A stretch of DNA of 64,000 bases from Marinomonas communis (GTDB lineage Bacteria; Pseudomonadota; Gammaproteobacteria; Pseudomonadales; Marinomonadaceae), in NCBI RefSeq assembly GCF_004363305.1, contig NZ_SNZA01000001.1, positions 150,902-214,901 on the forward strand, read 5' to 3'. The notes beneath the pieces were generated by a model, which was not told the DNA's origin, did no database searches, and saw only the letters and a list, made by a program, of their open reading frames with translations. Below are positions 289 through 18,145 of the stretch, in pieces; the stretch's first letter is position 1; each line of letters begins with the position of its first letter. A program made the translations under genes and the position numbers.

Positions 289-335
289 CTCGGTTCCTTA
301 TAGAAAGCACTGTTCTAATGCGGTAAACAGTGTTT
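4..335 (+). repeat. Left copy of ~330-bp direct repeat
   Basis: This segment matches 11724-12055 in the same orientation at a constant offset of 11720 bases. About six mismatches are visible (positions 142, 184, 202, 236, 324 and 333). It covers the 5' part of the peroxiredoxin gene and its upstream spacer. Homology fades at 333-336, inside an inverted repeat (arms AAAGCACTGTT and AACAGTGCTTT in the right copy). The two copies bracket the chemoreceptor fragment and the DMSP gene block. Confidence 0.9.
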
Positions 336-1065: not shown

Positions 1066-1466
1066 GACTAGCCTTTATCTCAGATTATTTCTTTTACTGT
1101 ACTTAGCGTGGCTTTTAGCGACAGGGAAAGGCCGTAGCGATAGCTGGCCAAACCTCACTTTAATGCTGACACAGCCTGATTAACGGACAATTGATTTATA
1201 GGAATGCCAGGTCAGACAAAAACTCATCCCTGATTTATTTATGGGCCTTAACATGGGGGTTAGAGGCTAGGTTTCTCCATAACAATATCAGGCATTACCT
1301 GATGTAATGACCCAGTGATTTTTATTGGTTTCTCTTTTTTTTCCCTCTGCGTCAATCTTGCTTTCAGAGCTTAAACACAAGCTTTTTCAACCAAGCTAGC
1401 TTGAGCCGGTAACTAAATAGGTAGCTATACCGGTAACAACAAAAATCAAGAATCAGGATTAACGCT
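1066..1466. other. Intergenic region with dyad and direct repeats ahead of the aldo/keto reductase
   Basis: No convincing gene is seen in these 401 bases. A 6-5-6 dyad ATCAGG-CATTA-CCTGAT lies at 1287-1303. Two copies of CCGGTAAC lie at 1406-1413 and 1430-1437, 24 bases apart, close to the start of the next gene. They look like regulator contact sites, but no regulator can be assigned. Confidence 0.35.
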
Positions 1467-2483
1467 ATGCAATACGTACGTCTAGGCCAATCCGGCCTGA
1501 AAGTATCCCGTCTGTGTCTGGGAACCATGAATATGGGCTCTAAAGAGTGGAAGCCCTGGATCTTTGACGAAAAGGAGAGCGAACCGATTATCCGTCACGC
1601 TCTGGATAACGGCGTTAACTTTATCGATCTGGCCGATTTTTATTCCACAGGTGCCGGTGAAGAAGTGGTGTGTAACGTACTGCGCCGTATTGGTCGTCGT
1701 GATGAGATGGTTATCACGACAAAAGTGGGTTATGCCATGAGCGATGATATCAACGCTCAGGGACATTCCCGCAAGCATATTTTTGATGCGATCGATGCTT
1801 CTCTGACCCGTATGGGCATGGATTATGTTGATATCTATATGCTGCATTATTTTGATACCGAGACGCCGGTAGAAGAGACCATGGGTGCTCTGAACGATAT
1901 TGTACTGGCAGGTAAAGCCCGTTATATCGGTATCTCGACCATGACCACTGGTCAGCTGGCGAAGATTCTGATGGTGTGCGACAAAAACGGCTGGCAGCGT
2001 CCGATCAATATGCAGCTGCAGCTGAACTGTGCTTACCGTGAAGAAGAGCGTGAGATGATTCCGTTCTGTATGGATCAGGGCATCGGAGTATCTGTCTTCA
2101 GCCCGCTGGCGCGCGGTATTCTGACTAATGATCTGCAGTCAAACCGTAATCAGACCGATTTCTTCACAGCAGAGATGTACAACGATCAGGCGTCAAAAGA
2201 TATCTCTTACTCTGTTGCTAAGGTGGCTGATGCCCGTGGTGTACTGCCTGCTCAGATCGCTCAGGCCTGGGTGCTAAACAAGCCGGAAATCAGTTCTATG
2301 CTGGTTGGTGCTGATACGAAAGAGCAGGTTGATAGTGCCCTGGCTGCGGTGGAAACCAAGCTGACCGAAGAGGAAATTTATGAGCTGGAGCGCAACTACA
2401 CGCCATGTGATCTGATTAACGACTACACCGCAGGTAAGCGTATTCCGCGGACTGCCCGTCCGGCTAAAGGAGATTTTGCCTGA
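1467..2483 (+). CDS. Aldo/keto reductase, YajO-like
   Basis: This 338-residue protein is of normal length for NAD(P)H-dependent aldo/keto reductases and resembles E. coli YajO along its length (start MQYVRLGQSGLKVSRLCLGT; middle GKARYIGIST). Catalytic tetrad positions are visible: Asp and Tyr in DLADFYS, Lys in TTKVGY and His in YMLHYFD. The C-terminal part has the cofactor-binding stretch around SSMLVGADTKEQ. ATG follows AGGATTAACGCT. It stands alone with its own terminator at 2665-2689. The family reduces aldehydes or ketones; here a C3 aldehyde or a stress carbonyl is possible, but the substrate is unknown. CTG-rich codon use matches the neighbouring lyase and dehydrogenase. Confidence 0.85.
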   Translation: MQYVRLGQSGLKVSRLCLGTMNMGSKEWKPWIFDEKESEPIIRHALDNGVNFIDLADFYSTGAGEEVVCNVLRRIGRRDEMVITTKVGYAMSDDINAQGHSRKHIFDAIDASLTRMGMDYVDIYMLHYFDTETPVEETMGALNDIVLAGKARYIGISTMTTGQLAKILMVCDKNGWQRPINMQLQLNCAYREEEREMIPFCMDQGIGVSVFSPLARGILTNDLQSNRNQTDFFTAEMYNDQASKDISYSVAKVADARGVLPAQIAQAWVLNKPEISSMLVGADTKEQVDSALAAVETKLTEEEIYELERNYTPCDLINDYTAGKRIPRTARPAKGDFA

Positions 2484-2878
2484 TCAACCCCTGCGTTATT
2501 TTTTGCTATAACCTTTGATGGTGATTAGCTAGGTAAATTCCAGGTGAAGGCAGTTAAATCTCTGTTTTCAGCCCTCTCGTGCAAGAGTTTGGAAGTTTAC
2601 CTTACTTGTTAAGCCTTTTGTGTTCACTGCTCTTACAGATTGCTAAGCTGTAAGACAGTACTTTAGCCCTGCCAGAGCGGGGCTTTTTTATATCTATTTT
2701 CTTATATATATAGTGGTCTAATAAACCCGGACACCATTTTAGGTGGTAAATGAACAGTGGATGACCTCTCAAAAACTCTTATGACTTTTTTGCATACTCC
2801 TTTGTCTTTTTATCTCTTGTCCAAAACTAATGAAATCTTTTTTATAGAGTTTTTGCCCCTCTAATCAAGGACACCGGA
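2484..2878. other. Intergenic region with terminator and possible insertion-sequence end
   Basis: No gene is seen. Apart from the terminator, 2711-2760 contains the stretch GTGGTCTAATAAACCCGGAC. Read on the other strand, this resembles the termini of some IS3-family elements. No transposase codons accompany it, so at most it is a remnant. AAGGA precedes the next start codon. Confidence 0.25.
2665..2689 (+). terminator. Rho-independent terminator after the aldo/keto reductase
   Basis: The stem AGCCCTGC/GCGGGGCT (8 pairs, one G-T) has loop CAGA and is followed by six T. It lies 180 bases after the reductase stop. Confidence 0.75.
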
Positions 2879-4246
2879 ATGACTGAAGTAGTGACATCGA
2901 TACCCGCTGAAACCATCAGGGAGCGAACAGAAATTGATCTTATTGGCCCTGTTCTTGTACCCTCTAATGCACTTTATGGAGGTCAGACTCAGCGGGCACT
3001 TAATCTCTATCCCTTAAATGGTGAAAAGCCGTTATCGGATTACCCTCAGCTGATTCGAGGTATACTGGCAGTTAAAAAAATTGCGGCACTCACTAATCGA
3101 CAGACCGATGAACTCCCCTCTGAAGTTGCGAATGCCATTATTGCCAGTATTGAGTCTCTGGAGGCTAATCTTCCGTTGGATCAATTCCCGGTACATGCTT
3201 GTCACGGTGGCGGTGGTATCTCTACCAATATGAATGTTAATGAGGTGCTGGCAAATCTGGTTAACCGTGATTTCTTCCAGCAACCGTTGGGTAGTTACCG
3301 CCCGGTTCATCCCAATGATGATATCAATCTGAATAACTCCACCAGCGATGCACTCACCACAGCATGCCACTTTGCAATAATTGAGCAGTGGCAGGGTTTA
3401 CAGGTAGCAATTAAAGATTTGTCAGCTGAATTTTTACTACAGGCTGAGCAGTGGCAGCACGTACAAAAAATTTCCCGTACCTGTCTACAGGATGCGGTTG
3501 AGATCAGTTTTGCCGATCTTTTTAGTGGTTATATCAGTCTGATTGAGCGTAACCAAAAGCGGTTGGATCAAGATGTTGAAGCGCTTTATCGCATTAATCT
3601 GGGGGGCAATATTATTGGCCGTAAAGGTGACTGCTCAGAGGCGTTTTTTGCTCAGGTAATGCCGATGGTGCAACAGGTGATGGGTAATGAAAAATACGAG
3701 CATAATCCTAACCTGTTTGATGCGTCACAAAACCACGATGATCTGATTGCTGTTGCCAATCGCCTGGATCTGTTTGCCCGTGGTCTATTGAAGATCGCTA
3801 AGGATTTCCGTTTGATGTCATCAGGCCCTGCGACCGGTTTTGGCGAGCTGCATTTGCCTGCGGTGCAACCAGGTTCCTCTGCCATGCCAGGTAAGGTCAA
3901 TCCAACCATTCCTGAGTATCTGGTGCAATGTTGTATGCAGGTGTGTGGCCGCTGTTACTCCGTGCAAATGACCCAGGATCATGGTGAGCTGGATCTGAAT
4001 GTTTGGCAGGCGGTAGTGATCCACAATCTGCTGGATGCGATGAGTTGTTTGGAAAACGGTATTCGCGCTTTTACCGAGTATTGCGTCAGTGGTTTACGTC
4101 CAAATCTGGAACGCAACCAAGAGAATATTAATACTCTGATACCCGTCTTGATTCGTTTGAAACAGAAAAAGGGTTACTCGTTTGCTTCACGTATTTATAA
4201 AGAAACGGGAGGGGATTTGGAGCAGATTCTAGCTTATCTGGACTAG
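2879..4246 (+). CDS. Aspartase/fumarase superfamily lyase
   Basis: This 455-residue protein belongs to the class II fumarase/aspartase family. The superfamily signature GSSAMPGKVNP (the mobile catalytic Ser loop) is intact near residue 325. STNMNVNEVLAN and HPNDDINLNNSTSDA correspond to the conserved N-terminal motifs (GTSTNMNVNEVIAN and HPNDHVNxSQSTND in aspartases). The family eliminates ammonia, water or another leaving group from a succinyl-type substrate, or adds it back. The variant residues HGGGGIS and DDINLNN make plain aspartase or fumarase doubtful. The RBS AAGGA and ATG support the start. Its place between an aldehyde dehydrogenase and a reductase in a DddP block suggests a catabolic role on a C3 or C4 acid; that is inference. 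Confidence 0.85.
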   Translation: MTEVVTSIPAETIRERTEIDLIGPVLVPSNALYGGQTQRALNLYPLNGEKPLSDYPQLIRGILAVKKIAALTNRQTDELPSEVANAIIASIESLEANLPLDQFPVHACHGGGGISTNMNVNEVLANLVNRDFFQQPLGSYRPVHPNDDINLNNSTSDALTTACHFAIIEQWQGLQVAIKDLSAEFLLQAEQWQHVQKISRTCLQDAVEISFADLFSGYISLIERNQKRLDQDVEALYRINLGGNIIGRKGDCSEAFFAQVMPMVQQVMGNEKYEHNPNLFDASQNHDDLIAVANRLDLFARGLLKIAKDFRLMSSGPATGFGELHLPAVQPGSSAMPGKVNPTIPEYLVQCCMQVCGRCYSVQMTQDHGELDLNVWQAVVIHNLLDAMSCLENGIRAFTEYCVSGLRPNLERNQENINTLIPVLIRLKQKKGYSFASRIYKETGGDLEQILAYLD

Positions 4247-4472
4247 TCCATAGCAATCCAGTCATATACGGAACAGGCCACATTACTCTTAAAATAGGCG
4301 CTTGAATTTATAGGATGAGTTTTTTGCAGGGTTGGCATTCAGTAATGTCAATTGTGCCTGAGGGCACCTCTTTATAACATGCTTGTGTTCATTTTTGGCA
4401 GAGTGGCAGTCGATTCACTACCCTGAATTAAGTAGTCATTCTGCCTTTTATCTATGACTACAGGAAATCATC

Positions 4473-5969
4473 ATGACAACAAATAATATTCCTCTGGCTT
4501 GGGCTCGTGACTGGCTGCAACAACCAAAACAACAGTACATCAATGGTCAATGGGTTGACGGTAACAGTGATGATTGGGTGGTCAGTAATCCGGCCAATGG
4601 TGAAGAACTGTGCCGTTTTGCCATGGCGGATACAGATCAGGTTGAACAAACTGCTGTGATTGCCAATCAGAACCACGAAGCGGGTACCTGGTCGAAAATG
4701 AGCCGCACCGAGCGTGCTAATGCTCTGCGTCAAATCGCTGACCTGATCCGCAATAATGTCGAAAAGCTGGCGCTGTTGGAAACCCTACCAAACGGTAAGC
4801 TGTTTGCAGAATCCATGGCTGATGATATCCCAACCTGTGCCGATATCTTTGATTATTATGCTGGTTGGACCGATAAGTTTTACGGTGAAACCTCTCCGGT
4901 TGATGACGGTTTCCTGAACTACACCCTGAAAGAGCCCGTGGGTGTCTGTGGTCTGATCGCACCGTGGAACTTCCCGTTGTATCAAGCTAGCCTGAAGATC
5001 GCTCCGGCTCTGGCCATGGGCAATACGGTGATTATCAAACCGTCTGAATATACCCCGCTGACCATGATCTACCTGATGGAGCTGATCGACAGCGAACTGG
5101 ATCTGCCTGCTGGTGTGCTGAATATGCTGCTGACCGACGGTGTTAACGCCAATCAACTGACCATCAGCAACAATGTACACAAGATCTCGTTCACCGGTAG
5201 TACAGGTGTGGGTCGTAAGATTGTACAGAATTCTGGCGCCTCTAACCTGAAAGCGGCCACCCTGGAGCTGGGTGGTAAGTCACCTTGTATCTTCTTTGAA
5301 GATACGCCGGATCTGGACGGTGCGGTTGATCGTGCCTTTACCGTGATGTTCTCCCACAAAGGTGAGAAATGCTCTGAGCCAACCCGTTTCCTAATTCACG
5401 ACAGTATCTACGATACGGTAGTGGAAAAGCTGGTTGAGAAAGCGGAAGCGATCAAGTGTGGTGATCCACTGACTGAAGGTGTGGATCAGGGCCCGCAGTG
5501 TAATAAGGTTCAGTTCGATAAGATCATGGAGTATATCGAGATTGGTAAAACCGAAGCCAAACTGGTTGCTGGTGGTTATGCCGATATCGAAGGCGACAAT
5601 GCCAAGGGGTACTATATCCGCCCAACGATCTTCTCTGATGTGCCGGCGGATGCCCGGATCGCCCAGGAAGAGATCTTTGGCCCGGTATTGAGTTGTATCC
5701 GTTTCCACAGCACCGAAGAAGCGGTACAGATCGCGAACTCAACGGAGTACGGTCTGGCTGCAGGTCTGTATACTGCTGATGTTTCCCGTGCTCACAAAGT
5801 GGCTGAGCAACTGGATGCCGGTATGCTGTTTATCAATCGTTATGGCTGTTACGGCCTGGCCGCACCTTTTGGTGGCTTTAAACAGAGTGGCTGGGGCAAA
5901 GAGATGGCGATTCACTCCCTAGCCTCCTACACCAAAACCAAAGGCGTTTGGGTGTACTACGGGGACTAA
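4473..5969 (+). CDS. NAD(P)-dependent aldehyde dehydrogenase
   Basis: This 498-residue protein has the usual length of the ALDH superfamily and is closest in feel to betaine/gamma-aminobutyraldehyde dehydrogenases. Catalytic residues are visible: Asn166 in APWNFP, Glu265 in LELGGKSP and the nucleophile Cys300 in KGEKCSEPTR. The cofactor motif FTGSTGVG is present. It oxidises an aldehyde to an acid or, less likely, to an acyl-CoA. AGGA lies upstream of ATG, and a terminator at 6005-6028 closes the unit. In the DMSP context the substrate could be malonate semialdehyde or a betaine-type aldehyde, but it lacks the marks needed to call it a DddC methylmalonate-semialdehyde dehydrogenase. Confidence 0.88.
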   Translation: MTTNNIPLAWARDWLQQPKQQYINGQWVDGNSDDWVVSNPANGEELCRFAMADTDQVEQTAVIANQNHEAGTWSKMSRTERANALRQIADLIRNNVEKLALLETLPNGKLFAESMADDIPTCADIFDYYAGWTDKFYGETSPVDDGFLNYTLKEPVGVCGLIAPWNFPLYQASLKIAPALAMGNTVIIKPSEYTPLTMIYLMELIDSELDLPAGVLNMLLTDGVNANQLTISNNVHKISFTGSTGVGRKIVQNSGASNLKAATLELGGKSPCIFFEDTPDLDGAVDRAFTVMFSHKGEKCSEPTRFLIHDSIYDTVVEKLVEKAEAIKCGDPLTEGVDQGPQCNKVQFDKIMEYIEIGKTEAKLVAGGYADIEGDNAKGYYIRPTIFSDVPADARIAQEEIFGPVLSCIRFHSTEEAVQIANSTEYGLAAGLYTADVSRAHKVAEQLDAGMLFINRYGCYGLAAPFGGFKQSGWGKEMAIHSLASYTKTKGVWVYYGD

Positions 5970-6004
5970 TACGTTACCTGTATCCTTTGAATCAAGCAGA
6001 AAAA

Positions 6005-6028
6005 AGCGCTCTAGGGCGCTTTTTTTTG
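6005..6028 (+). terminator. Terminator after the aldehyde dehydrogenase
   Basis: The stem AGCGCT/GGCGCT has loop CTAG, is preceded by A residues and is followed by nine T. Confidence 0.8.
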
Positions 6029-6162
6029 TACCTGTTCGTCTTATACTCAAAACACACAATTGCTCAAAATTGGTTGATTTAAGATTATGTAAGATAAAGC
6101 TTTTGGGCGAAAGTAGAATAAAAATATTTTGTGATGTTCAGGGCATTCCAGGTTTAAAAAAT

Positions 6163-7032
6163 ATGCGACAACTACCTTCTTTAACCGCGTTAAGAGTCTT
6201 TGAGGTGGCTGGTAAACAGCTCAGCTTTACAATGGCAGCCAAGCAGCTGTATGTGACGCAGGGTGCCGTTAGCCGACAGATCAAGCAGCTGGAGGATTAT
6301 CTGGGGGTTCCCCTGTTTGTGCGTATGCATCACAAACTGGAACTGACCGATTCAGGTCGACAGCTGCTGCAGAAGATTGAGCAGTCCTTTGATTTAATCG
6401 AAACTGCCGTTACTGAAATTCGTGATCCCAAGTTACGGCAAAAGCTGAATATTCTGGTCCCCCCCACCCTGGCCACTCGCTGGTTAGCAAGGCGCTTAAC
6501 AGAGTTCCATAAGCGCTTCCCTGAGCTGGAAGTGTCTGTTTATGATCATCCTAGTGAGCATGTATTATTTGACTGTGAAATTCGCTTTGGTCGTATGGCG
6601 AAACCCAAGCACTTTAGTGAGATGCTTTTTCTGGAGCAGCATGTACCTGTTTGTTTACCGGATATGATCGACAGGGCACAAAACCTGACGCTGGAAGCAG
6701 GCAATTTGCTACACATATTGCACGAAGGAGAAAGGTTGCCGGTATGGCGAGACTGGCTGGAGGCAGCAGGGCTCCATCAACAAGTAGACGCAGATCGAGG
6801 CCTGTCGTTTAGTACACTGGATCAGGCCATCAGTGCATTAAAAGCGGGCACGGGTTTTGCGGTGATTGAGAAGCATATGATTAGCAGGGAACTGGAAGAG
6901 GGTCGACTGGCTCAGTTCAGTGATATCGAGGTGAGCGGCCCTTACGGCTACTGGCTGGATATTCCACCGGAGCGGCAGGGATTATCCAAGGTGGTCTTTT
7001 TTAGAGAGTGGCTGCACGAGCAGTTGGCTTGA
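6163..7032 (+). CDS. LysR-family regulator, GcvA-like
   Basis: This 289-residue regulator has an N-terminal winged helix-turn-helix (residues 5-65, SFTMAAKQLYVTQGAVSRQI) and a C-terminal substrate-binding effector domain. The start at ATG 6163 is chosen because MRQLPSLTALRVFEVAG is the normal GcvA-type N-terminus; an upstream TTG would add 31 unlike residues. It is convergent with the BCCT gene and separated from it by a strong hairpin. It may control the lyase, dehydrogenase or DddP units, with acrylate or a related acid as a possible ligand; neither is shown by the sequence. Confidence 0.85.
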   Translation: MRQLPSLTALRVFEVAGKQLSFTMAAKQLYVTQGAVSRQIKQLEDYLGVPLFVRMHHKLELTDSGRQLLQKIEQSFDLIETAVTEIRDPKLRQKLNILVPPTLATRWLARRLTEFHKRFPELEVSVYDHPSEHVLFDCEIRFGRMAKPKHFSEMLFLEQHVPVCLPDMIDRAQNLTLEAGNLLHILHEGERLPVWRDWLEAAGLHQQVDADRGLSFSTLDQAISALKAGTGFAVIEKHMISRELEEGRLAQFSDIEVSGPYGYWLDIPPERQGLSKVVFFREWLHEQLA

Positions 7033-7039
7033 TGGCAGA

Positions 7040-7067
7040 CCGTGTTCTGCTTTCCAGCAGAACACGG
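7040..7067. terminator. Bidirectional hairpin between LysR and BCCT genes
   Basis: A perfect 12-bp stem CCGTGTTCTGCT/AGCAGAACACGG with loop TTCC lies between the two convergent stops. The T tract is weak on the plus side (TTGCGTTTTT). Confidence 0.65.
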
Positions 7068-7112
7068 TTGCGTTTTTGAGAACGGTTTAAGGCCTGAACT
7101 TTAGAGGGAGGG

Positions 7113-8672
7113 CTAAGGTGCTGGCGATACTTCCTGTTGCATCGGCTCAGAGTCACTATCTGAATCGGTATCCATATCCTGTTTCTCCGCTATCAGCGCC
7201 TTGATAAAGCCAGCACACATCACAGATACGATAATCGCAAATGGGAAGCCCAGGATGATCAGGACCGCCTGAATCGCACCCATACCACCTACCATCAGCA
7301 ACAGGATGGTCACGGTAGATACGGATACCACCCAGAAAATGCGTTGCCAAACGGGGGCCAGATCACCATCCTGAGACGTCAGAATATTAATCACCAGAGT
7401 ACCCGAATCTGCTGTGGTGATAAAAAAGACAAAGATTGAGAACAGTACTAGGTAGCTAATAAATTCAACGCCTGCAAACAGCTCAAAGAATTTAAACAGA
7501 GCGGTAGATGAGTCTGCAGATACGGCTGTTGCCAGCTCAGTGATCCCTTGATTATGAATCATATCCAGAGCGGTAATACCGAAGATGGATAACCAAACCA
7601 GTGAGAAAGCGACAGGGATAATCAGCACGCCAAAGACAAACTCACGAATGGTTCTGCCACGGGAGATACGAGCAATAAAGACACCGGTTGGTGCAGCGAA
7701 GGCGATCCACCAGGCCCAGTACAGTAGAGTCCAGCCTTCAAACCAGGAAGGGTTGGTTTGCGAGTAGGTTTCAAAGGTCAGAGGTACCAGATTGCTCAGG
7801 TAATCTCCAACGCTATTGACTGTCGCGTTAAGCACATCTGAGGTATTACCTGCAAACAGGACAAAAATCATCAGGCCGATAGCCACATTGATATTCAGTA
7901 CCGACAGCTGCTTGATGCCCTTTTTAAGACCCAATAGCAGAGACAAGCAGGTCACAATACCAATACCGATAATCAAAGCGACCTGTACACCGACACCTTT
8001 AGGCACGTCAAACAGGTAATTCAGGCCGGAGTTGATCTGCATAACACCGAAACCCAGCGGTGTCACAATACCAATCACAGTTGCTAATACGGCAAAGGAA
8101 TCGACAAAATCGCCGATAGGGCCGTAGATTTTTTTGCCAATCAGTGGGTAGAGAGCAGAGCGCATCTCAATAGGTAGGTTTTTACGATAAGCCGCATAAG
8201 AGATCACTAAAGCCACAATAGCGTAGATTGCCCAGGCATTAAAACCCCAGTGAAAAAAAGTAATGGTCATGGCCTGCTCCATCGCCTGGGCCGTTTTAGC
8301 TTCGGCCACCGGTGGTGACAGATAATGCATCACAGGCTCGGCAACACCAAAAAAGACCAGGCCAATGCCCATGCCGGTGGAGAACAGCATAGCCCCCCAG
8401 GCAAAGGTACTGAACTCGGGACGTTCATGATCCTGCCCCAGACGCAGGTTACCGATTTTAGTACTCATACCACAATAGGCCAGCACCAGCATAAAACCTG
8501 CAACACTGAGCATGTAAAACCAGCCAAACTTTACTGCGATCAGATGCTGCGCCTGTTTAACCAGGGCTGTAGCACTGTCCGGGGTGACCAGGACAAATAG
8601 GATCAGAATACTCAGGACAGCGCAGGAGACTGCAGCGACCCGTTTCTTATAGTTGTTCTCTGTAGTGATCAT
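7113..8672 (-). CDS. BCCT-family betaine/DMSP transporter
   Basis: This 519-residue membrane protein has about 12 hydrophobic segments and belongs to the betaine-choline-carnitine transporters. The family core is plain: the Trp-rich YWAWWIAF and the following FIARISRGRTIREF. The motif GMGIGLVFFGVAEP contains the glycine-x-glycine pattern that, in BetP, marks sodium-coupled betaine carriers. The C-terminus is a short acidic tail. It lies 168 bases downstream of dddP on the same strand and is probably co-transcribed, so DMSP is the likely cargo (the role of DddT proteins), although glycine betaine is equally compatible with the fold. Confidence 0.85.
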   Translation of the reverse strand: MITTENNYKKRVAAVSCAVLSILILFVLVTPDSATALVKQAQHLIAVKFGWFYMLSVAGFMLVLAYCGMSTKIGNLRLGQDHERPEFSTFAWGAMLFSTGMGIGLVFFGVAEPVMHYLSPPVAEAKTAQAMEQAMTITFFHWGFNAWAIYAIVALVISYAAYRKNLPIEMRSALYPLIGKKIYGPIGDFVDSFAVLATVIGIVTPLGFGVMQINSGLNYLFDVPKGVGVQVALIIGIGIVTCLSLLLGLKKGIKQLSVLNINVAIGLMIFVLFAGNTSDVLNATVNSVGDYLSNLVPLTFETYSQTNPSWFEGWTLLYWAWWIAFAAPTGVFIARISRGRTIREFVFGVLIIPVAFSLVWLSIFGITALDMIHNQGITELATAVSADSSTALFKFFELFAGVEFISYLVLFSIFVFFITTADSGTLVINILTSQDGDLAPVWQRIFWVVSVSTVTILLLMVGGMGAIQAVLIILGFPFAIIVSVMCAGFIKALIAEKQDMDTDSDSDSEPMQQEVSPAP

Positions 8673-8840
8673 ATTAGGTTACTTCTTTTATGTTTGTGGG
8701 AAGTACCACTGAGATAGGATCATGTAGCTTCTTGCTATCCCGTGGTTGAAAGGCGCTGGATGGCATCCAGCGCTCAAGGTTTCAAGACTGTAAACTGCTT
8801 AGACAAATCTGAAACAGTGTTACAAGCCTGAAAACAGTGA

Positions 8841-10181
8841 TTATTTCAGCAGGGCCTCTTCAAACGGGTAGGTGGTCAGGTTTTCAAAACCGTTTTCAGT
8901 GATGATGACCTGATCTTCAAGCTTAACACCCTCTTTGCCGTCAACAGCGCCAACGTAGGCTTCTACACATAATGCCATGCCGGGTTCCAGTACGCCGCTG
9001 TAACCGTGACCTTCCAGATCTTCAGGGTAACGGATGGATGGGTATTCATCACATAGACCCACACCGTGCATCATCACGCCATAGCGCTGCGCGCGGAACT
9101 CTTCCGGTAAGCGCACACCGGCACGAGTGACCTCTTCAAAAGTCATGCCTGGGCGCAGAATTTCCATATTGTGTTGGATATGGTCATAAGCCACTCGATA
9201 CAGGCGTCTTTGTTCTGCCGTGGGCTCGGCATCACCAATCATCCAGGTACGGGAGATATCGGCACAGATACCATAAGGGCCGACCAGATCGGTATCGAAA
9301 GCCAGCAGTTCACCGTTTTGCACAACACGCGGGCCCGACTCCTGGAACCAGGGGTTTGTGCGTGGGCCGGAAGACAATAAGCGGCATTCAATCCATTCGC
9401 CGCCACGCTTAATATTTTCAGCATGCAATACTGCCCAGATATCATTTTCGGTAGCTCCTGGTACAGAAGCCTGCTGCATCTTAGCCATGGCAATTTCAGT
9501 GGAAGCCAGTGAGCAACGCATGGCGTTAATCTCATCCTCGTTTTTGATAGCGCGGGCCAGTTCCATCACTTCCTGACCATCGAAGGTTTCGATATTCAGA
9601 CGATCCAGCTCACGCAGACCTACGATTTCGATCTTGTCTAACGCCAAGCGGCGGTTATTGCCGCTATGCTCTTTTAGAATGGACTCGATCTCTTGAGCAA
9701 AGTGACGGGCATGTTCTGTAGTGCGATCACCTGTTTCAAAGTAGAAGAAAGAAGCTCCACCACGCAGCTCCTTAACTAGCGGTAGGTGAGCGGTGAGGTG
9801 ATCACAGTTATGGAAATCCCACAAAATGATATGGCCAGAGGCAGAAACAAAGCAGGCGCGAGCAGAGTTGTGGGTTATCCACAGCTGCATATTGGTAGAG
9901 TCCGTGGCGTAACGAATATTCAGCGGATCAAACAGAAGAATACCACCTAGGTCACGCTTTCGCAGTTCATTTACAATGCGTTGTAAACGGTACTCACGCA
10001 TACGTGCGAGGTCTGGGGCTATCAGCCCCAGGGCTTCCCACTCGTTAAAGGCCAGATCCGTTGGACCTATTTCCACTCGGTCATTTTCATTGGGAGAACC
10101 ATCGGGTTTAAAAGCGCCGCGTCGACGCGTTGGGTCGATTTTTCGGTTTGAACTTGCAATTGAAAAAGGGGACCAGTTCAT
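8841..10181 (-). CDS. dddP: DMSP lyase DddP
   Basis: This 446-residue protein has the M24 aminopeptidase fold but follows the DddP family end to end. Diagnostic stretches are IRYATDSTNMQLW, AENIKRGGEWIE and SGPRTNPWFQE. The six metal ligands known from the Ruegeria DddP structure are present, each offset by one: Asp296, Asp298, Asp308, His372, Glu407 and Glu422. The proposed catalytic base is Asp378 (HGVGLCDEYPS). The enzyme cleaves dimethylsulfoniopropionate to DMS and acrylate in the cytoplasm. GAGGT precedes the ATG. The gene is first in a likely operon with the BCCT transporter. A generic Xaa-Pro peptidase call would be wrong given this motif set. DddP is commoner in roseobacters; its presence here suggests transfer. 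Confidence 0.92.
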   Translation of the reverse strand: MNWSPFSIASSNRKIDPTRRRGAFKPDGSPNENDRVEIGPTDLAFNEWEALGLIAPDLARMREYRLQRIVNELRKRDLGGILLFDPLNIRYATDSTNMQLWITHNSARACFVSASGHIILWDFHNCDHLTAHLPLVKELRGGASFFYFETGDRTTEHARHFAQEIESILKEHSGNNRRLALDKIEIVGLRELDRLNIETFDGQEVMELARAIKNEDEINAMRCSLASTEIAMAKMQQASVPGATENDIWAVLHAENIKRGGEWIECRLLSSGPRTNPWFQESGPRVVQNGELLAFDTDLVGPYGICADISRTWMIGDAEPTAEQRRLYRVAYDHIQHNMEILRPGMTFEEVTRAGVRLPEEFRAQRYGVMMHGVGLCDEYPSIRYPEDLEGHGYSGVLEPGMALCVEAYVGAVDGKEGVKLEDQVIITENGFENLTTYPFEEALLK

Positions 10182-10544
10182 TAAGCTAACCTCATATTTT
10201 TGTTGTGTTTATTGTGATAAGCCAGCACCTGTTGAACGCTGAAGAACTACGTATCCGGTGGACTACAATCGAATGAGGTTTATTATTCGGGGGATGCTAG
10301 GATTGAACAACGCACTAAAAAACAATCTGCTATGACTTAATGTAATGGTAGATCAAATAGGCCTTCATCTTAGGTATAGAGCTTGCCTGATAAGACTGCT
10401 AATTAAGGGATTACATCGGCGATCAAAGTCTTGTCTGAAAAATCAAAGAAATATCTGTGGATTCAATCTTAATGTAATTCTGACATTAATTGGAGTGGAC
10501 CTCGTTCAGTAGACATCCTATGACTGTTATTCCATCAAGGGCTA

Positions 10545-10721
10545 GTGATCTTAACACGCTCAGATTGGCTTAAAGCAGCTGATGGAGATTATGCAGATGA
10601 GTACCAAAAATATAAGGCTGGAGTCGTTAAGGCTCATTTGCCTTTGTTATGGAAGCAGATTGAAGAAATGGCTTCAGGCCCAGAATTAAATCTAGAGTTT
10701 TTTTATGAAGTATCATCTTAA
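10545..10721 (+). pseudogene. Unrecognised 58-residue open frame, probable remnant
   Basis: This frame can start at GTG 10545 and reads to TAA 10721. Its mixed, protein-like composition includes LKAADGDYADEYQKYKAG and LPLLWKQIEEM. I do not recognise the family. There is no clear ribosome binding site and the frame is closed just upstream by TGA, so it is more likely the tail of a decayed gene than a real small protein. Confidence 0.25.
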
Positions 10722-10856
10722 CTATGCCTAACGACATGTTAAGTGAAATTAAATACCGGTGACGAGAAAAGTTAGTCGAATGGGCCGAAGAAAAATTAAT
10801 AGTACGGTCTATTAATAGAGACTTTCATGTTAGTTGTTTCAGCTAGGTATGAACTA

Positions 10857-10876
10857 GGTTACTAAAAGTATACTTA
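10857..10876 (+). promoter_or_regulatory. Putative HxlR operator copy 1
   Basis: GGTTACTAAAAGTATACTTA lies about 145 bases upstream of the HxlR start. Close copies lie at 13341-13360 (minus strand) and 13455-13474, in front of the operon and the gene that flank this regulator. Confidence 0.6.
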
Positions 10877-11021
10877 TTGCATTCAGTCTCTAGGGAACTA
10901 AAATATACCGTAAGACGCTCGCCATTAGGTAACTACGCATATTCAATAACTATGAGTGACGTTTTTATTATCAATGACGATAAACTACGTTACTTAGCTT
11001 CTTTAAATGACGAGGGGCTGT

Positions 11022-11387
11022 ATGAAAGCTAAAGTTAAAGTTGACCAAAAAGGGCGTAAGAGCGTTATTGATGCTTGTACCGAGCCTTGTGCAATCGAAA
11101 AAGGCATGAGGATTTTGGGTTCAAAGTGGAAAGGTTCAATTATCTATCATCTGAAAGATGGCCCAGTGAGGTTCAATGACCTTTCGAGAATGTTGGGTGG
11201 TGCAAGCAAGAAGATGGTTGACCAGCGCCTAAAAGAATTAGAAAGTGAAAACATGGTAATGCGTCGAGTGCTCAATGAAAAACCATTGGCGGTCAGCTAC
11301 GAACTCACTGAGTTTGGGCGCAGTGCGCTAAAAATTCTTGAAGAGTTGAGAAAATGGTCTGAAAGCAACAATGTGCAGCTTAAATAG
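11022..11387 (+). CDS. HxlR-family transcriptional regulator
   Basis: This 121-residue protein is a single winged helix-turn-helix of the HxlR/DUF24 family. It has the conserved N-terminal cysteine (EPCAIEKGMRILGSKWKG), the HTH (RFNDLSRMLGGASKKMVDQRL) and the wing ending SYELTEFG. ATG 11022 is chosen over 11007 because GAGGGG lies 7 bases before it. Family members sense quinones, aldehydes or disulfide stress through that cysteine. It is convergent with the peroxiredoxin/AhpD/quinone reductase operon, and shared operator-like sites precede its own gene, that operon and the LtrA gene, so it is probably their regulator. Confidence 0.88.
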   Translation: MKAKVKVDQKGRKSVIDACTEPCAIEKGMRILGSKWKGSIIYHLKDGPVRFNDLSRMLGGASKKMVDQRLKELESENMVMRRVLNEKPLAVSYELTEFGRSALKILEELRKWSESNNVQLK

Positions 11388-11420
11388 TGTGAGCAACATT
11401 CATCTAAGTCCTTCTTTAAC

Positions 11421-11452
11421 AAAACAAGGCAACCAATAGGTTGCCTTGTTTT
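11421..11452. terminator. Bidirectional terminator between HxlR and peroxiredoxin genes
   Basis: A perfect 14-bp stem AAAACAAGGCAACC/GGTTGCCTTGTTTT with loop AATA gives U-rich ends on both strands. It sits between two convergent stops. Confidence 0.85.
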
Positions 11453-11468
11453 GGTTCAATCGACTGTT

Positions 11469-12008
11469 TCAATAGTCTAATTTGCCACGGATTGGGTAAT
11501 CGTTAGCTGGGTTACGAATCCATGCAAAACCTCGGGTCAGAGCACCGAGCTCAGGTCTTACAAACGGATTATTGGATAGGTCAACCACGTGTAAGTTGCC
11601 GTGTTCATTGACGACAAACAACCCAGGCTCTGCAAAGTTATGGTCGGTTTCTGCTTCAGAGCGTGGTAGCGATATATAAAGTCCCAGAGTTTTCATCTGT
11701 TGCTCGGTAAGACCATAGGCGATAGTAAAGCTGATATCGAGATTTTCTAGGTGTTGCTCCAACTGTTGCTTCGAGTCAGCAGAGACAGCCAGAATGTCTA
11801 CGCCTGCTTCGGCAAATGCTTGTTTATATGTCTCAATTTCATTTAGATATTTGGTGCAGAGTGGGCAATGTTTACCACGATAAACAAACACTGCTTGCCA
11901 TGTTGTATCACCTTCAGGTTTACCTAGCTTGACTTTGGTTCCATCAAGCTTTGTTACTTCTAATATAGGAAAAGCGTCACCCGCTTTGAGTTTTTGTGAA
12001 TATGTCAT
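11469..12008 (-). CDS. Peroxiredoxin-like (AhpC/TSA) protein
   Basis: This 179-residue cytosolic protein has a thioredoxin-like redoxin fold. The resolving/peroxidatic region is HCPLCTKY near residue 48, a CxxC rather than the classic TxxC motif. It probably reduces peroxides or transfers thiol electrons. It is the last gene of a three-gene operon (quinone reductase, AhpD-like, this gene) and starts at ATG after AAGGAACCGAG. Its first 95 codons and its leader are duplicated at the left edge of the window. Expression probably follows the HxlR regulator. Confidence 0.85.
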   Translation of the reverse strand: MTYSQKLKAGDAFPILEVTKLDGTKVKLGKPEGDTTWQAVFVYRGKHCPLCTKYLNEIETYKQAFAEAGVDILAVSADSKQQLEQHLENLDISFTIAYGLTEQQMKTLGLYISLPRSEAETDHNFAEPGLFVVNEHGNLHVVDLSNNPFVRPELGALTRGFAWIRNPANDYPIRGKLDY

Positions 12009-12055
12009 CTCGGTTCCTTATAGAAAGCACTGTTCTAATGCGGCAAACAGTGCTT
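11724..12055 (+). repeat. Right copy of ~330-bp direct repeat
   Basis: This is the partner of 4-335, offset by 11720 bases. It is embedded in an intact operon, so it is probably the resident copy. Confidence 0.9.
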
Positions 12056-12056
12056 T
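12024..12056 (-). other. Intercistronic inverted repeat in the peroxiredoxin leader
   Basis: The arms AAAGCACTGTT and AACAGTGCTTT (11 bp) flank an 11-base spacer between the AhpD-like stop and the peroxiredoxin start. It could be an mRNA hairpin that tunes downstream expression. The duplicated segment of the left repeat ends inside it. Confidence 0.55.
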
Positions 12057-12085
12057 AAGTTGTGTTTGCTTGTTCTTGACTGAGT

Positions 12086-12652
12086 TTAACGCTCGCTAGG
12101 ATGCGTCCACGCAAACTTCTGGAATGGCGCATCGGTTTCAGTATGTGCCAGTGCATTCGTGAAGTTTGAGATAAGCTTAGCAGACAAGCCAGTCAGCACT
12201 TCCAGCGCTTGACGTTTGGTAAAACCAGCGTCTAGGAATGCTTGCAGTTTTTCATCACCGATATGACCACGGTTATCAAGCAGTGCCTTGGTAAAATCAT
12301 GCAGTACTTGTAGCTTCGCATCAGGAATGGCAGTACCTTCACGTAATGCTTCAATCACCTCATCTGGCATTTTGCCCGCCTTCATCATCCATGTATGACC
12401 AGGAACACAGTAGTGACAGTTATTCTCAAAGTTAGCGGTCATAAAGACCACTTGTTGCTCCAATGGACTGAACGTTGTGTTTTTCATAAACAGGTCAAAG
12501 ACCGTGTTGTATGCTTCGTAGGTAGCCGGTGCTTCAGCAAGAACCGCGTGCAAGTTTGGTAGCATACCGAAGCCTTTTATTGACTGAGCTACCAGTTCTT
12601 TAGACTCTTCAGGAGCCGTTTCTGCATCGTAGTAAGTAAATTCAGTGCTCAT
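12086..12652 (-). CDS. Carboxymuconolactone decarboxylase-family / AhpD-like protein
   Basis: This 188-residue protein has the alpha-helical AhpD/CMD fold. The redox pair and proton-relay histidine are visible in NCHYCVPGH. Such proteins act as alkylhydroperoxidase partners or disulfide reductases rather than true decarboxylases. AAGGAGG precedes the ATG. It is the middle gene of the stress operon, 10 bases after the quinone reductase gene. It probably works with the downstream peroxiredoxin. Confidence 0.85.
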   Translation of the reverse strand: MSTEFTYYDAETAPEESKELVAQSIKGFGMLPNLHAVLAEAPATYEAYNTVFDLFMKNTTFSPLEQQVVFMTANFENNCHYCVPGHTWMMKAGKMPDEVIEALREGTAIPDAKLQVLHDFTKALLDNRGHIGDEKLQAFLDAGFTKRQALEVLTGLSAKLISNFTNALAHTETDAPFQKFAWTHPSER

Positions 12653-12662
12653 AGATACCTCC

Positions 12663-13247
12663 TTAGAAGTGTGTGTCTAGGTGTGTTTCAAAGCGAACAA
12701 AGTCGTTTTCAATGTTTGCGTTCTTCATAACGTCGTAGCACGCAAATGTTGGTAGTGCTGACATGCCAAAGAAGCGGAAATTGACGTGCATGTGAAACAT
12801 CAAATCATCTACACTGCGGCCTTGGAATAGGTATTCTCTATCATCATTAAATGATTCTTCTGGTGCATTAAGTGTGAGCGAAAGCATGTATTTAGTATTT
12901 GTACGAGTACCGCCTGTTCCATAATTTTTCTTTGGTTCTTCTGCCGTTCGGCCATCAAAAGCACAAAGCGCACCCCCCATTCCTGCAGTGAAGACTTCAT
13001 CCATGTATTTTTTGAAAGACCATGGGATAGTCATCCAGTTGACAGGCGACTGAAGAATCACTCTCTCTGCCCATTCGAAATTCGCCAGCTGCTCATCAAC
13101 TACGATGTCATCTTGCATTGTAACTACACGAACTTCGTGGCCCTTTGATTCTAACTGGGTGCGAGCTTTCTCAACTAAAGTCGCATTTAATTTTCCCTCT
13201 GAAAAAGGAGATGGTTCGTGCGCGTTAATGATTAGAACGTTACTCAT
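12663..13247 (-). CDS. NAD(P)H:quinone oxidoreductase, MdaB-like flavodoxin-fold
   Basis: This 194-residue protein has a flavodoxin-like fold and matches E. coli MdaB in motif order: start [22 protein letters not shown]/active-site region [20 protein letters not shown], then [10 protein letters not shown]. It makes a two-electron reduction of quinones, which avoids semiquinone radicals. It is first in the operon. An operator-like element lies about 95-115 bases upstream on the minus strand. HxlR control of quinone reductases is well known in other bacteria. Confidence 0.85.
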
Positions 13248-13340
13248 GATATTAACCTTTCAATAATTGGTTGTTTTACAGAGCGAATAATGATTTCGCC
13301 GTCTTGCGGTTTATTATGGTTACCTGCATTTCTAGTTCAA

Positions 13341-13360
13341 TTAGTTAACTTTTAGTAACC
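13341..13360 (-). promoter_or_regulatory. Putative HxlR operator copy 2
   Basis: On the minus strand it reads GGTTACTAAAAGTTAACTAA, 16 of 20 bases identical to copy 1, and lies upstream of the quinone reductase operon. Confidence 0.6.
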
Positions 13361-13454
13361 ACCATGAGAGTTGAATGAGATGGAGATAAAACTATGTTTA
13401 TTATGAATTTTATTTTTTACATTGAAGTGTTTATACGAAGAGGCAGGTGCTTAA

Positions 13455-13474
13455 AGTTACCAAAAGTATACTAA
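13455..13474 (+). promoter_or_regulatory. Putative HxlR operator copy 3
   Basis: AGTTACCAAAAGTATACTAA differs from copy 1 at three positions and lies about 80 bases before the LtrA gene. Confidence 0.6.
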
Positions 13475-13551
13475 TTGAAATTATTGCTGGAGTTAGCATA
13501 CTGAACAAAACATGCGGCTTAGCGCAGTGATTATGTAAAGGACATAACGAT

Positions 13552-14763
13552 ATGGATTTAGCCAAGAAACATCCATTGTGGCGCAAGCCCAAGCATCATC
13601 TAGATGTGGAGACCAGCAATGATCATGTGCACTGGATAGAACTTTTTTACGACTTGGCTCATGTTGTATCAATTTTCGTGCTGGGAAATTACTTGAGTTA
13701 TCACCTAGGCTTTACTGGATTCACCGTTTTCGCGCTGCTATTTATCGTGATTTGGTTCGCTTGGTTTGATATAAGCCTTTTTAACTCGATTTATGTCAGC
13801 ACGGATGTACAACATCGCTACATTATGGCGGCTCAGATTGTCACCATTATGATTATGTCATCCGCTATCGTTCACATTGGTGGTGCTGGATGGATGTACT
13901 TTGCTATAGGTTATGCATTAAATCGAGCGATAATCTCGTTGCTCTATTTTAGGGCTAAAACGGTAGAAGAAAGTAAAACATGCTTACCAAGTCATATGTT
14001 TCGATGCTTTGCGATTGCAGCTGTCATTTTCTTAATCAGCGCGTTTCTGCCTGCTCCATATAGTTATATGGTGTTCGCTGGAGGTATGGTAGTTTTAGCA
14101 GCTTTGTATGTCGCCCCGAAAGTTGGTGCTGTCTTTCAACAGCGCTTCTTACCACGATTTGGGCATATGTCTGAGCGCTTTGCGCTGCTTTTATTGATCG
14201 TTGCAGGTGAAGGCTTCTTTAAGCTGGTTATCACTTTAGCAGAAAAAGGCATTGATAATGTGGTTGGCGACGTACTAGTAAACTACGCGTTTGGCGGCCT
14301 ATCAGTTTTCGTTTTGTGCTGGATATATTTTGATTTTGTTGGCAACGGCAAGCCGCGAGACAATGAGCCTGCCACATTCGTCAAGTGGACGATTGCTCAC
14401 CTTCTGCTGATGTTATCTGCTGTCACGATAGGCGTTGCATTGTCAGCAGAGGTCAAAATAGGATTTATAGATCAATATCCGTTCAAATATGCATTGATTG
14501 GCTGTTTGGGCTTAGCGGCATACCTGTATTGCCTACTTAAGATTCAACATGTTATCGAGCGTCGTACCGCCCATCGCTTTGCCACTGCGAACGTTCGTTA
14601 TATGGGGATCATGCTTTGTTTCGTGACCCTAATTATCGTTCCTTTTGTTCCTTCAATCGTGGCTAATATGGTGTGGGGGGCAGCATTGTTCTCTCAGATT
14701 TTGGTTCCTGTAAGAACCGCATTCAAAACTCTGACTCGAGAAGCGAATCAAGCGCTCGACTAA
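13552..14763 (+). CDS. LtrA-family (low temperature requirement A) membrane protein
   Basis: This 403-residue protein has about ten hydrophobic segments and the family start HVHWIELFYDLAHVVSIFVLG. The mid-protein charged pattern RFALLLLIVAGEGFFKLV is also typical of LtrA proteins. The biochemical role of the family is not established; Listeria ltrA was linked to growth in the cold. AAGGACATAACGAT precedes the ATG. A copy of the shared operator upstream suggests it responds to the same electrophile/quinone signal as the neighbouring operon. The ion channel gene follows 51 bases later. Confidence 0.8.
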   Translation: MDLAKKHPLWRKPKHHLDVETSNDHVHWIELFYDLAHVVSIFVLGNYLSYHLGFTGFTVFALLFIVIWFAWFDISLFNSIYVSTDVQHRYIMAAQIVTIMIMSSAIVHIGGAGWMYFAIGYALNRAIISLLYFRAKTVEESKTCLPSHMFRCFAIAAVIFLISAFLPAPYSYMVFAGGMVVLAALYVAPKVGAVFQQRFLPRFGHMSERFALLLLIVAGEGFFKLVITLAEKGIDNVVGDVLVNYAFGGLSVFVLCWIYFDFVGNGKPRDNEPATFVKWTIAHLLLMLSAVTIGVALSAEVKIGFIDQYPFKYALIGCLGLAAYLYCLLKIQHVIERRTAHRFATANVRYMGIMLCFVTLIIVPFVPSIVANMVWGAALFSQILVPVRTAFKTLTREANQALD

Positions 14764-14814
14764 GCCGTTTTAATTTATACGTTAGCTCTGTTGAACTTCT
14801 AATGGTTTGCCACT

Positions 14815-15555
14815 ATGTATCGACCCAAAGTAACGGAACACATTACGAGCTTTCAACTGGCAGTATTAGTACTATCCGTATTTGTTGTTTTCTCTCTGGT
14901 AATTGAACTTGTCTTTAACTTGCCACCTGACGTCCTGCAGATTCTGATCTATGTAGATACATTTATTTGCACAATCTTCTTTATTGATTTTGTTCAGCAG
15001 TACCGAGCTGCGCCGTCTAAGCTTGAGTATATGAAATGGGGCTGGCTTGACCTTATTTCTTGTATTCCATTAATGGAGATGAATCAATTTGCACGTTTAA
15101 TTCGAGTTTTTCGTCTGGTCCGTGCGATCAAGTCGATCTCAATGATTTCTCATGCACTTAATGAAAACAAGGTTTCAACGTCACTGCACTTCATGGTAGT
15201 GACCGCACTAATGATGATGCTGTTTGGCTCTATTTACATTCTCTATCTCGAGAAGGATATGCCGGGAGCTAATATTCACAACGCTGGCGATGCATTTTGG
15301 TGGACATTCGTCACTATCACAACGGTTGGCTACGGTGACTTCTTCCCAGTGACATTGGAAGGTCGCATTGTTGCCATAATATTGATTACAACTGGCGTTG
15401 GCATGTTTGGGAGTTTTACCGCAGTTTTGGCCTCATGGATTATGGATGTCTCTGACGAGCGAAAGATGGAAATTCAGATTCTAGAAGAGGTGCATACTCT
15501 AAAAGCAGAGCTTAGGGATATGAAAAAGCTGCTGAAGAAGCAAAAAAATGAGTAG
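14815..15555 (+). CDS. Voltage-gated-type ion channel (potassium selectivity filter)
   Basis: This 246-residue membrane protein has about six transmembrane segments, an S4-like basic helix (RLIRVFRLVRAIKSI) and the pore signature TTVGYGDFFPVT, which indicates K+ selectivity. A short C-terminal coiled coil (about residues 212-246, rich in Glu and Lys) probably drives tetramer assembly. It lies 51 bases after the LtrA gene on the same strand and may be co-transcribed. No ligand-binding RCK or cyclic-nucleotide domain is present. Confidence 0.85.
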   Translation: MYRPKVTEHITSFQLAVLVLSVFVVFSLVIELVFNLPPDVLQILIYVDTFICTIFFIDFVQQYRAAPSKLEYMKWGWLDLISCIPLMEMNQFARLIRVFRLVRAIKSISMISHALNENKVSTSLHFMVVTALMMMLFGSIYILYLEKDMPGANIHNAGDAFWWTFVTITTVGYGDFFPVTLEGRIVAIILITTGVGMFGSFTAVLASWIMDVSDERKMEIQILEEVHTLKAELRDMKKLLKKQKNE

Positions 15556-15901
15556 CTAGCTATTTTGCAACTAGCATTTGTAATGCTTGTCATTCTTTAG
15601 GGGCTATTTTAAACCATGTGTAACACATCTGATTAATATCAAGTTAGCTATTGCGTGGATTTCATTTAAGTGACTGAATTAGAAGGATCTAATGCTTTAT
15701 CCTTTATGCATTAGTAACAGGTTATAAAAGCACTTAATCATCTGTTTTATCAAGAGTTGGTTGAGCTTCACGGTGCGAGGTACTGTTTGAAATAATGGTT
15801 TAGTGAGATCCGCAAAAATATCTTGGTTTTGCAGTGCAAGTTGGACGATACGCGCAGTAAATAATGTTAGACTTCGCGCCATATTGAGTTAGAGGTCCAG
15901 C
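15556..15901. other. Intergenic region before ycaO
   Basis: No supported gene is seen in these 346 bases. A 61-codon open frame on the minus strand (15697-15882) has no recognisable family and no clear RBS. GAGG lies just before the ycaO start. Confidence 0.4.
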
Positions 15902-18097: not shown

Positions 18098-18103
18098 GCT
18101 TTT

Positions 18104-18133
18104 ACCCGAGCGCAAAGGGAATTGCGCTCAGGT
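18104..18133. terminator. Hairpin between convergent ycaO and AraC genes
   Basis: ACCCGAGCGCAA/TTGCGCTCAGGT forms a 12-position stem with one mismatch and a six-base loop. It lacks a strong T tract. Confidence 0.5.
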
Positions 18134-18145
18134 AATAAACCTTCC

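Follow-up and report, generated by a model that had tools for sequence, protein, structure and literature searches.

Results

A dddP gene and a BCCT gene lie in a six-gene cassette

We examined a 64,000-nucleotide stretch of the Marinomonas communis genome (contig NZ_SNZA01000001.1, positions 150,902 to 214,901; hereafter the window), in which a gene of the DddP family, predicted to cleave dimethylsulfoniopropionate (DMSP), lies next to a gene for a BCCT transporter. The original prediction had described the two as a DMSP cleavage pair. Both genes are present and adjacent, but the pair is too small a unit: dddP and bcct belong to a cassette of six genes that also encodes an aldo/keto reductase (AKR), a lyase of the aspartase/fumarase superfamily, an aldehyde dehydrogenase (ALDH) resembling betaine aldehyde dehydrogenase (BADH), and a LysR-type regulator. 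We refer to the lyase, ALDH and AKR genes as the trio. In the window, the AKR, lyase, ALDH and LysR genes run forward in that order, and dddP and bcct run in reverse:

8841 to 10181, minus strand: dddP, predicted DMSP lyase, 446 aa (NF043017 score, 4rzy match, residues, tree)
7113 to 8672, minus strand: BCCT transporter, 519 aa, predicted importer of DMSP or another onium compound, with box residues W321, W322 and F325 and the motif AAPTG (Pfam, PDB chains, box counts)
7698 to 7700, minus strand: codon of BCCT Phe325, at the third box Trp position (alignment with BetP 4ain)
2879 to 4246, plus strand: aspartase/fumarase-superfamily lyase, 455 aa, predicted to release fumarate (Pfam Lyase_1, E 6.2e-57)
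3482 to 3484, plus strand: codon of lyase Cys202, at the AspB His188 position (alignments)
1467 to 2483, plus strand: AKR, 338 aa (Pfam Aldo_ket_red, E 8.6e-63)
4473 to 5969, plus strand: BADH-like ALDH (TIGR01804, 475 bits, below the cut-off of 668.6)
6070 to 7032, plus strand: LysR-type regulator, GcvA-like (Pfam; best NCBIfam model PRK11139, 232.9 bits, below the cut-off of 288)

All six reading frames are intact, and the ALDH carries both its Cys and Glu motifs (GEKCSEP and LELGGKSP). We found no tRNA in the window and no Rfam family in its positions 1 to 20000; the small open reading frames within the 825 bases above dddP were uninformative.

DddP belongs to a gammaproteobacterial branch of the family

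The DddP reading frame is intact and shares its orientation with the intact BCCT frame, which follows it after 168 bases, as predicted. All six iron ligands (D296, D298, D308, H372, E407, E422) and the catalytic D378 are in place, and the family stretch IRYATDSTNMQLW begins at residue 89. The protein scores 637.7 bits against the NCBIfam DddP equivalog NF043017 (cut-off 600) and at most 62.3 bits against ectoine hydrolase and peptidase models. That cut-off was passed by none of 14 control genomes, 11 of which give a signal below it. The best PDB match is 4rzy (E 2.3e-161), with 4rzy, 4s01, 4s00 and 4b28 all at E 1.1e-151 or better; the best chain outside DddP is 7k3u, an aminopeptidase P family protein, at E 1.1e-14. 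Agreement of this strength lies well outside chance. We take 4rzy and 4b28 to be the DddPs of R. lacuscaerulensis and R. denitrificans. The residues aligned with window D378 and Y367 are Asn in 4s01 and Ala in 4s00, respectively.

Across 99 aligned DddP and DddP-like proteins, D296, D298, D308, H372 and E422 are identical throughout, whereas E407 is shared by 98 rows and D378 by 97, the exceptions for D378 being the DddP-like proteins L118 and L119 of other Marinomonas genomes. Changing D295, D297, D307, H371, E406 or E421 in a DddP, that is, the window ligand numbers minus one, abolished activity (PMC10989825).

We built a 98-row tree with four DddP-like M24 proteins as its root; in it, the window DddP pairs with that of the congener G046 (87% identity, support 96) inside a 24-row clade with SH-aLRT support of 98. 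The clade is mostly gammaproteobacterial (Marinobacterium jannaschii, Photobacterium atrarenae, Vibrio, Oceanimonas, Psychrobacter, Aliamphritea, Leucothrix), and two of its rows, L014 and L016, are labelled alphaproteobacterial. Clustering with Xaa-Pro peptidases did not occur, as judged from the PDB chains and the NCBIfam peptidase models; the tree rows comprised no Xaa-Pro peptidases, no solved roseobacter DddPs and no O. doudoroffii sequences. Score, structural match, residues and clade together uphold the original assignment as DddP.

A gammaproteobacterial DddP is not supported as a novelty. Evidence for dddP transfer to Vibrio orientalis and Oceanimonas doudoroffii dates from 2012 (PMC3338564), and three vibrio DddPs more than 79% identical to O. 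doudoroffii DddP, which is listed under EC 4.4.1.3, were described in 2023 (PMC10819757). The gene is also listed in Marinobacterium and Pseudomonas isolates (PMC9327192). Gammaproteobacterial DddP being already published, DddP with a BCCT gene is a sound but known kind of finding; the part worth testing is the set of six genes, which has a dedicated type of BCCT and a Cys-type lyase.

A separate DddP-like M24 family (L116, L117, L118, L119) occurs in four other Marinomonas genomes at 39-48% identity, below the DddP cut-off. Its genes adjoin BCCT genes in three of the four, and at two of these loci a GbcA-like Rieske oxygenase (130.7 bits, below the cut-off of 670) and a BADH-like ALDH stand beside the DddP-like gene.

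The six genes stay together while their order changes

We compared stretches of 17-20 kb around dddP in G046 and in seven dddP-bearing Vibrio, and around the lyase gene in two Photobacterium (the names Photobacterium atrarenae for G696 and Photobacterium sp. TY1-4 for G733, like M. algicola for G003 and V. pelagius for G539 below, are inferred). All six genes occur together in 10 genomes, namely the source genome, G046, six Vibrio and two Photobacterium, and in four gene orders. G046 has lyase-ALDH-AKR-DddP-BCCT forward and LysR in reverse; in Vibrio, ALDH-lyase run in one direction and LysR-AKR-DddP-BCCT in the opposite one; Photobacterium has AKR-DddP-BCCT, a reversed LysR gene and ALDH-lyase. 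LysR homologs at 43-68% identity are found in the nine other cassettes. Because the order is reshuffled yet the genes stay together, the set is likely under selection as a unit.

Joint occurrence points the same way. Among 227 Vibrio genomes searched, dddP is present in seven, the lyase (at least 45% identity) in seven and both in six (p 2.7e-10); the full set is found in those six of the seven dddP carriers, and the seventh, G607, with a DddP at 71-72% identity, lacks it. Among 48 Marinomonas genomes, dddP above 80% identity occurs in two, the lyase above 50% in five and both in two (p 0.009). Both p values ignore kinship. More widely, DddP was found in 3 of 390 genomes drawn from the order, and the lyase (E <= 1e-105) in the source genome only, among 369 drawn from the class; these samples say little about gene context. 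The trio was found at L017 alone among 80 named dddP loci, many of which end at contig ends or lie far from the window DddP clade. By eye, no LysR-type palindrome was shared upstream of the cassette genes at five loci scanned.

The cassette BCCT carries a distinctive box

The Pfam BCCT model covers residues 12-494 of the transporter almost completely (model positions 1-483 of 485, E 1.4e-173), and the GMGIG motif noted in the original prediction lies at residue 100. The nearest solved chains are the BCCT 8ybq, the choline transporters 9vbn and 9vbp and the trimethylamine transporter 8zw8, not DddT. The box WWIAFAAPTG is present in all 10 cassette BCCTs. AAPTG occurs in none of the 14 other BCCTs of the same loci, and Phe at the third box position in just one of them (L118, which adjoins a DddP-like gene). 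BetP and the choline and trimethylamine transporter chains have Trp at this position, presumably W377 in BetP numbering. The simplest reading of these sequences is that cassette BCCTs may share a dedicated substrate site. That the substrate is DMSP is predicted from the linkage to dddP.

The lyase keeps a dicarboxylate clamp and replaces the aspartase histidine

The lyase has GSSAMPGKVN at residues 332-341, matching the superfamily GSSxxPxKxN loop that holds the catalytic Ser. In this loop and in the carboxylate clamp (T201, M336, K339, N341) it resembles AspB, FumC and CreD. Compared with AspB, Cys202 takes the place of the His general acid, Ile114 that of a threonine which we take to be T101, and Ser156 that of Asn142. 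Our alignment held 138 rows (the window, the contexts and the 120 matches listed), and counts use the 136 rows with at least 40% identity; S333, S334, T201, K339, N341 and C202 are invariant in all 136. The protein falls below the curated cut-offs for aspartate ammonia-lyase and class II fumarase (391.9 versus 510, 321.6 versus 664.75, 315.1 versus 681.2, 300.5 versus 876 and 264.6 versus 840 bits).

In AspB, T187, M321, K324 and N326 form the alpha-carboxylate pocket and were replaced so that the enzyme aminates acrylate; His188 and Asn142 also contact the amine (PMC11744663). That histidine protonates the leaving group and is absent in nitrite-releasing CreD (PMC13411527). Since the window lyase retains the clamp and has Cys in place of His188, its most likely reaction is the release of something other than ordinary ammonia from a substituted succinate, with fumarate as the product.

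Two substrates were rejected. Acrylate, our first idea, does not suit an intact dicarboxylate clamp, which the engineered AspB had lost (PMC11744663). Nitrosuccinate was set aside because the loop reads SSAMPGKVNP against the consensus SSxMPxKRNP, without the KRN of nitrating lyases; the five-residue fingerprint of those enzymes was not mapped.

The trio also occurs without a linked dddP

Three further Marinomonas genomes (G003, probably M. algicola; G022; G042) and an Ensifer plasmid carry the trio without a linked dddP. In the Marinomonas stretches, its neighbors are a different BCCT (30-32% identical to that of the window), a choline-dehydrogenase-like GMC protein, a second ALDH, an MR_MLE dehydratase and an IclR regulator; a LysR gene is present in the G003 and G042 stretches and was not found in that of G022. 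An ABC importer and a LysR gene accompany the Ensifer trio. In the cluster on a Priestia plasmid, AKR gives way to a Zn alcohol dehydrogenase, and FGGY kinase, FAD protein and short-chain dehydrogenase/reductase (SDR) genes lie nearby. V. pelagius keeps AKR-LysR-ALDH-lyase and has FGGY-FAD-SDR genes 52-66% identical to those of Priestia; the best solved match of its FAD protein is alkyl-dihydroxyacetone-phosphate (alkyl-DHAP) synthase, with 163 bits, and the next type scores 109.

These FGGY kinase, FAD protein and SDR clusters lie near the lyase at L162:15662-19376 (V. pelagius) and L159:1733-5522 (Priestia), and are possibly a glyceryl-ether cleavage set. An ISL3 transposase (L162:5991-7184) stands downstream of AKR in V. 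pelagius, where relatives have dddP and bcct. In Peribacillus sp. R9-11, an 852-aa reading frame annotated as a BCCT transporter only (L160:9998-12556) fuses the lyase to a BCCT that is 49% identical to the trio-linked BCCT of M. algicola. The join, at which the end of the lyase and the start of the BCCT are missing, may be a deletion; it suggests that the two genes were neighbors.

The converse is also found: dddP of the same clade stands without a nearby trio in Psychrobacter, Oceanimonas, Aliamphritea and Vibrio G607. In Photobacterium, a second, different BCCT adjoins AKR. Since each half is found separately and Photobacterium has two BCCT types, two substrates are favored over one. Both cassette-bearing Photobacterium (L169, L170) also have a second locus whose GMC, MR_MLE, ALDH and IclR genes resemble the set around the M. 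algicola lyase.

Discussion

A candidate route for DMSP and a second osmolyte

We lean towards a reading in which a DddP-family gene (predicted DMSP cleavage) and a BCCT gene (predicted import) are two members of the six-gene cassette, with a second onium osmolyte as the likely substrate of its remaining enzymes. The BCCT would import DMSP with Na+, and DddP, whose family has solved and assayed members, would cleave it to dimethyl sulfide and acrylate. The acrylate side could be served by an AcuI/YhdH-type gene elsewhere in the genome (444.7 bits against a cut-off of 297.25, which 8 of 9 genomes searched also pass). In the other half, AKR and the BADH-like ALDH may oxidize the homoserine betaine alcohol to aspartate betaine, from which the lyase would eliminate trimethylamine to leave fumarate; the LysR protein probably regulates this half. 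We infer this route from the recurring partners, since an alcohol dehydrogenase or AKR, a BADH-like ALDH, a fumarate-forming lyase and a BCCT fit the sequence homoserine betaine to aspartate betaine to fumarate plus trimethylamine.

A more specific proposal strikes us as possible, though rather doubtful: that the cassette joins DMSP cleavage to a new homoserine betaine route, and that elsewhere the module, fed by glyceryl-ether enzymes, completes breakdown of the head group of the betaine lipid diacylglyceryltrimethylhomoserine (DGTS). The modules upstream of the trio suit glyceryl ethers. In other bacteria, the feeder set would be either an FGGY kinase, an SDR and an alkyl-DHAP-synthase-like flavoprotein, or a GMC protein, an ALDH and an MR_MLE dehydratase. 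Phytoplankton make betaine lipids under phosphate limitation. Homoserine betaine itself is a measured marine exometabolite (PMC13403184), and our literature search returned no bacterial breakdown route for it or for the betaine-lipid head group among the matches listed.

A number of observations count against these assignments. The functions of all six cassette genes are predicted from sequence, and according to PMC10819757 that of the vibrio DddPs is still to be determined. Two DddT-like BCCTs that were assayed did not carry DMSP, and BCCT sequence does not tell the substrate (PMC13270143). Three AspB positions vary within the lyase rows: at T101, 109 rows have Ile, 14 have Val and 13 still have Thr; at N142, 76 have Ser, 14 have Ala and 46 still have Asn; and at M321, 112 have Met and 24 differ. 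A Phaeobacter aspartase also lacks the histidine, with Gln instead, so an onium leaving group cannot be diagnosed from the absence of this residue. G003 and G022 also carry a distant DddP-like gene (46-48%), which means that the trio there is not wholly free of DddP relatives; G042 has neither DddP nor a DddP-like gene. Finally, the source genome yielded no MR_MLE gene (E <= 1e-60) and no alkyl-DHAP-synthase-like gene (E <= 1e-30), so the betaine-lipid link is not directly applicable there.

Could the cassette instead encode a single pathway? Acrylate from DddP might be carried on by the lyase, AKR and ALDH, either by hydration through 3-hydroxypropionate and malonate semialdehyde to malonate or by amination to beta-alanine. 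The six genes do travel together, AKR adjoins dddP in G046, Vibrio and Photobacterium (which also speaks against two separate substrates), a DddP or DddP-like gene occurs in four of the five lyase-bearing Marinomonas genomes, and the exchange of AKR for a Zn alcohol dehydrogenase suits alcohol oxidation. We nonetheless judge this unlikely: the lyase retains T201, K339 and N341, the clamp that was replaced before AspB aminated acrylate, and no DMSP lyase was found in the trio stretches of G003, G022, G042, Ensifer, Priestia or V. pelagius. The constant linkage would also fit if all six genes served one substrate other than DMSP, such as an algal betaine that this DddP branch beta-eliminates, and the two Marinomonas DddP-like genes found with BCCT, GbcA-like Rieske and BADH-like ALDH genes provide a betaine-catabolism setting for the idea. 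Yet the DddP active site is fully conserved, the vibrio DddPs resemble an enzyme that carries a DMSP lyase EC number (PMC10819757), and same-clade dddP genes occur away from any trio, which makes this proposal improbable too.

The neighbors might alternatively provide general aldehyde or electrophile detoxification against acrylate, and not a catabolic pathway. A block of genes to the right of the cassette, with HxlR-like, peroxiredoxin and MdaB-like members, resembles electrophile-stress genes, and all or part of it adjoins the cassette in two Vibrio. But G046, Photobacterium and four of the six Vibrio showed no such block next to the cassette, and the lyase, ALDH and AKR also occur with transporters and catabolic enzymes where no dddP is linked; we regard detoxification as very improbable.

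DMSP is one of the main sources of dimethyl sulfide, a climate gas, and DMSP-cleaving bacteria are often judged by gene counts. The cassette represents a gammaproteobacterial version of predicted DMSP cleavage with its own transporter type, at shifting loci, and its linked enzymes offer a testable candidate pathway for homoserine betaine and the betaine-lipid head group. If this is true, dimethyl sulfide and trimethylamine would both arise from algal osmolytes through a single set of genes.

Origin of the locus

Acquisition of the genes had been proposed from their compositional contrast with those to the right. The contrast is real but modest: GC content is 0.509 for dddP, 0.486 for bcct and 0.427-0.460 for the next four genes. 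Relative to the mean of 50 window genes, dddP lies 1.6 standard deviations (SD) and bcct 0.6 SD above, and several genes to the right are low outliers. The relevant features are:

11007 to 13247, strand not assigned: right-hand block of HxlR-like, AhpC-type peroxiredoxin, carboxymuconolactone-decarboxylase-like and MdaB-like genes (names read without a family search)
4 to 335, minus strand: direct repeat, left copy, 5' part of the AhpC-type gene (98.2% identical to 11724-12055)
11724 to 12055, minus strand: direct repeat, right copy, part of the AhpC-type gene (98.2% identical to 4-335)

From HxlR to MdaB, the block matches genes that adjoin the cassette in Vibrio sp. SCSIO 43135 at 86-92% identity, and the AhpC-type protein reaches 60% at best in the 47 other Marinomonas genomes; the block is therefore likely foreign. 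The odd base composition belongs to this block and does not support acquisition of the cassette.

Acquisition of the cassette is plausible on other grounds. Its presence is patchy (DddP above 80% identity in 2 of 48 Marinomonas genomes), it occupies different loci in the two congeners (blastn of its window flanks against the G046 cassette flanks gave no match), and direct repeats flank it. Further pieces of the right-hand block lie in the left flank, at -388 to -190, -191 to -96 and -541 to -392. This suggests that the cassette was inserted or rearranged in the source genome. Repeat fragments at 88-100% identity (window 4-335, 11015-12055 and 15719-15868; left flank G000:C1:150360-150805) form a rearrangement footprint. 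A chemoreceptor-like fragment at window 574-1065 (dCache_1, below the Pfam cut-off) stops early and is pseudogene-like.

We rejected the idea that the cassette had come from Vibrio by recent transfer: identity at fourfold-degenerate sites is 0.15-0.31 between the six cassette genes and those of two Vibrio genomes, against 0.40-0.62 for the right-hand block (0.31 for a second MdaB-like copy). The values for Photobacterium (0.30-0.44) and G046 (0.28-0.35) are similarly low, which points to an unsampled donor.

Comparison with known systems

The window protein shares full length, iron ligands and the catalytic Asp and Tyr with the DddP lyases 4rzy, 4b28 and O. doudoroffii DddP, and differs from them in belonging to a gammaproteobacterial branch and lying inside a six-gene cassette. 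DddT of Psychrobacter sp. D2 is of the same family as the cassette BCCT, and both have an aromatic residue other than Trp at the third box position, Phe in the window BCCT and Tyr324 in DddT (PMC13270143; a putative match, mapped by W-W-x-x spacing). They differ in other respects: the window BCCT scores 201 bits to DddT against 426 to 8ybq, and its AAPTG loop sets it apart. At the BetP Na1 positions T246 and T250 it has Thr and Ile, keeping one, where DddT has Ile and Ala; the window BCCT thus lacks the DddT pattern of two hydrophobic residues.

A Vibrio DddP homolog was noted in 2021 "within a four gene cluster" (PMC7876524). That cluster is presumably part of a cassette of the window type, although the lyase and ALDH are not mentioned in the excerpt of that paper. 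The Halomonas-type cluster (dddD, dddT, acuN, acuK, acuI; PMC3338564) likewise combines a DMSP-cleaving enzyme with transport, regulation and later catabolic genes. The window cassette, in contrast, has a different lyase and different neighbors, and none of its six proteins is a CoA transferase or an enoyl-CoA hydratase.

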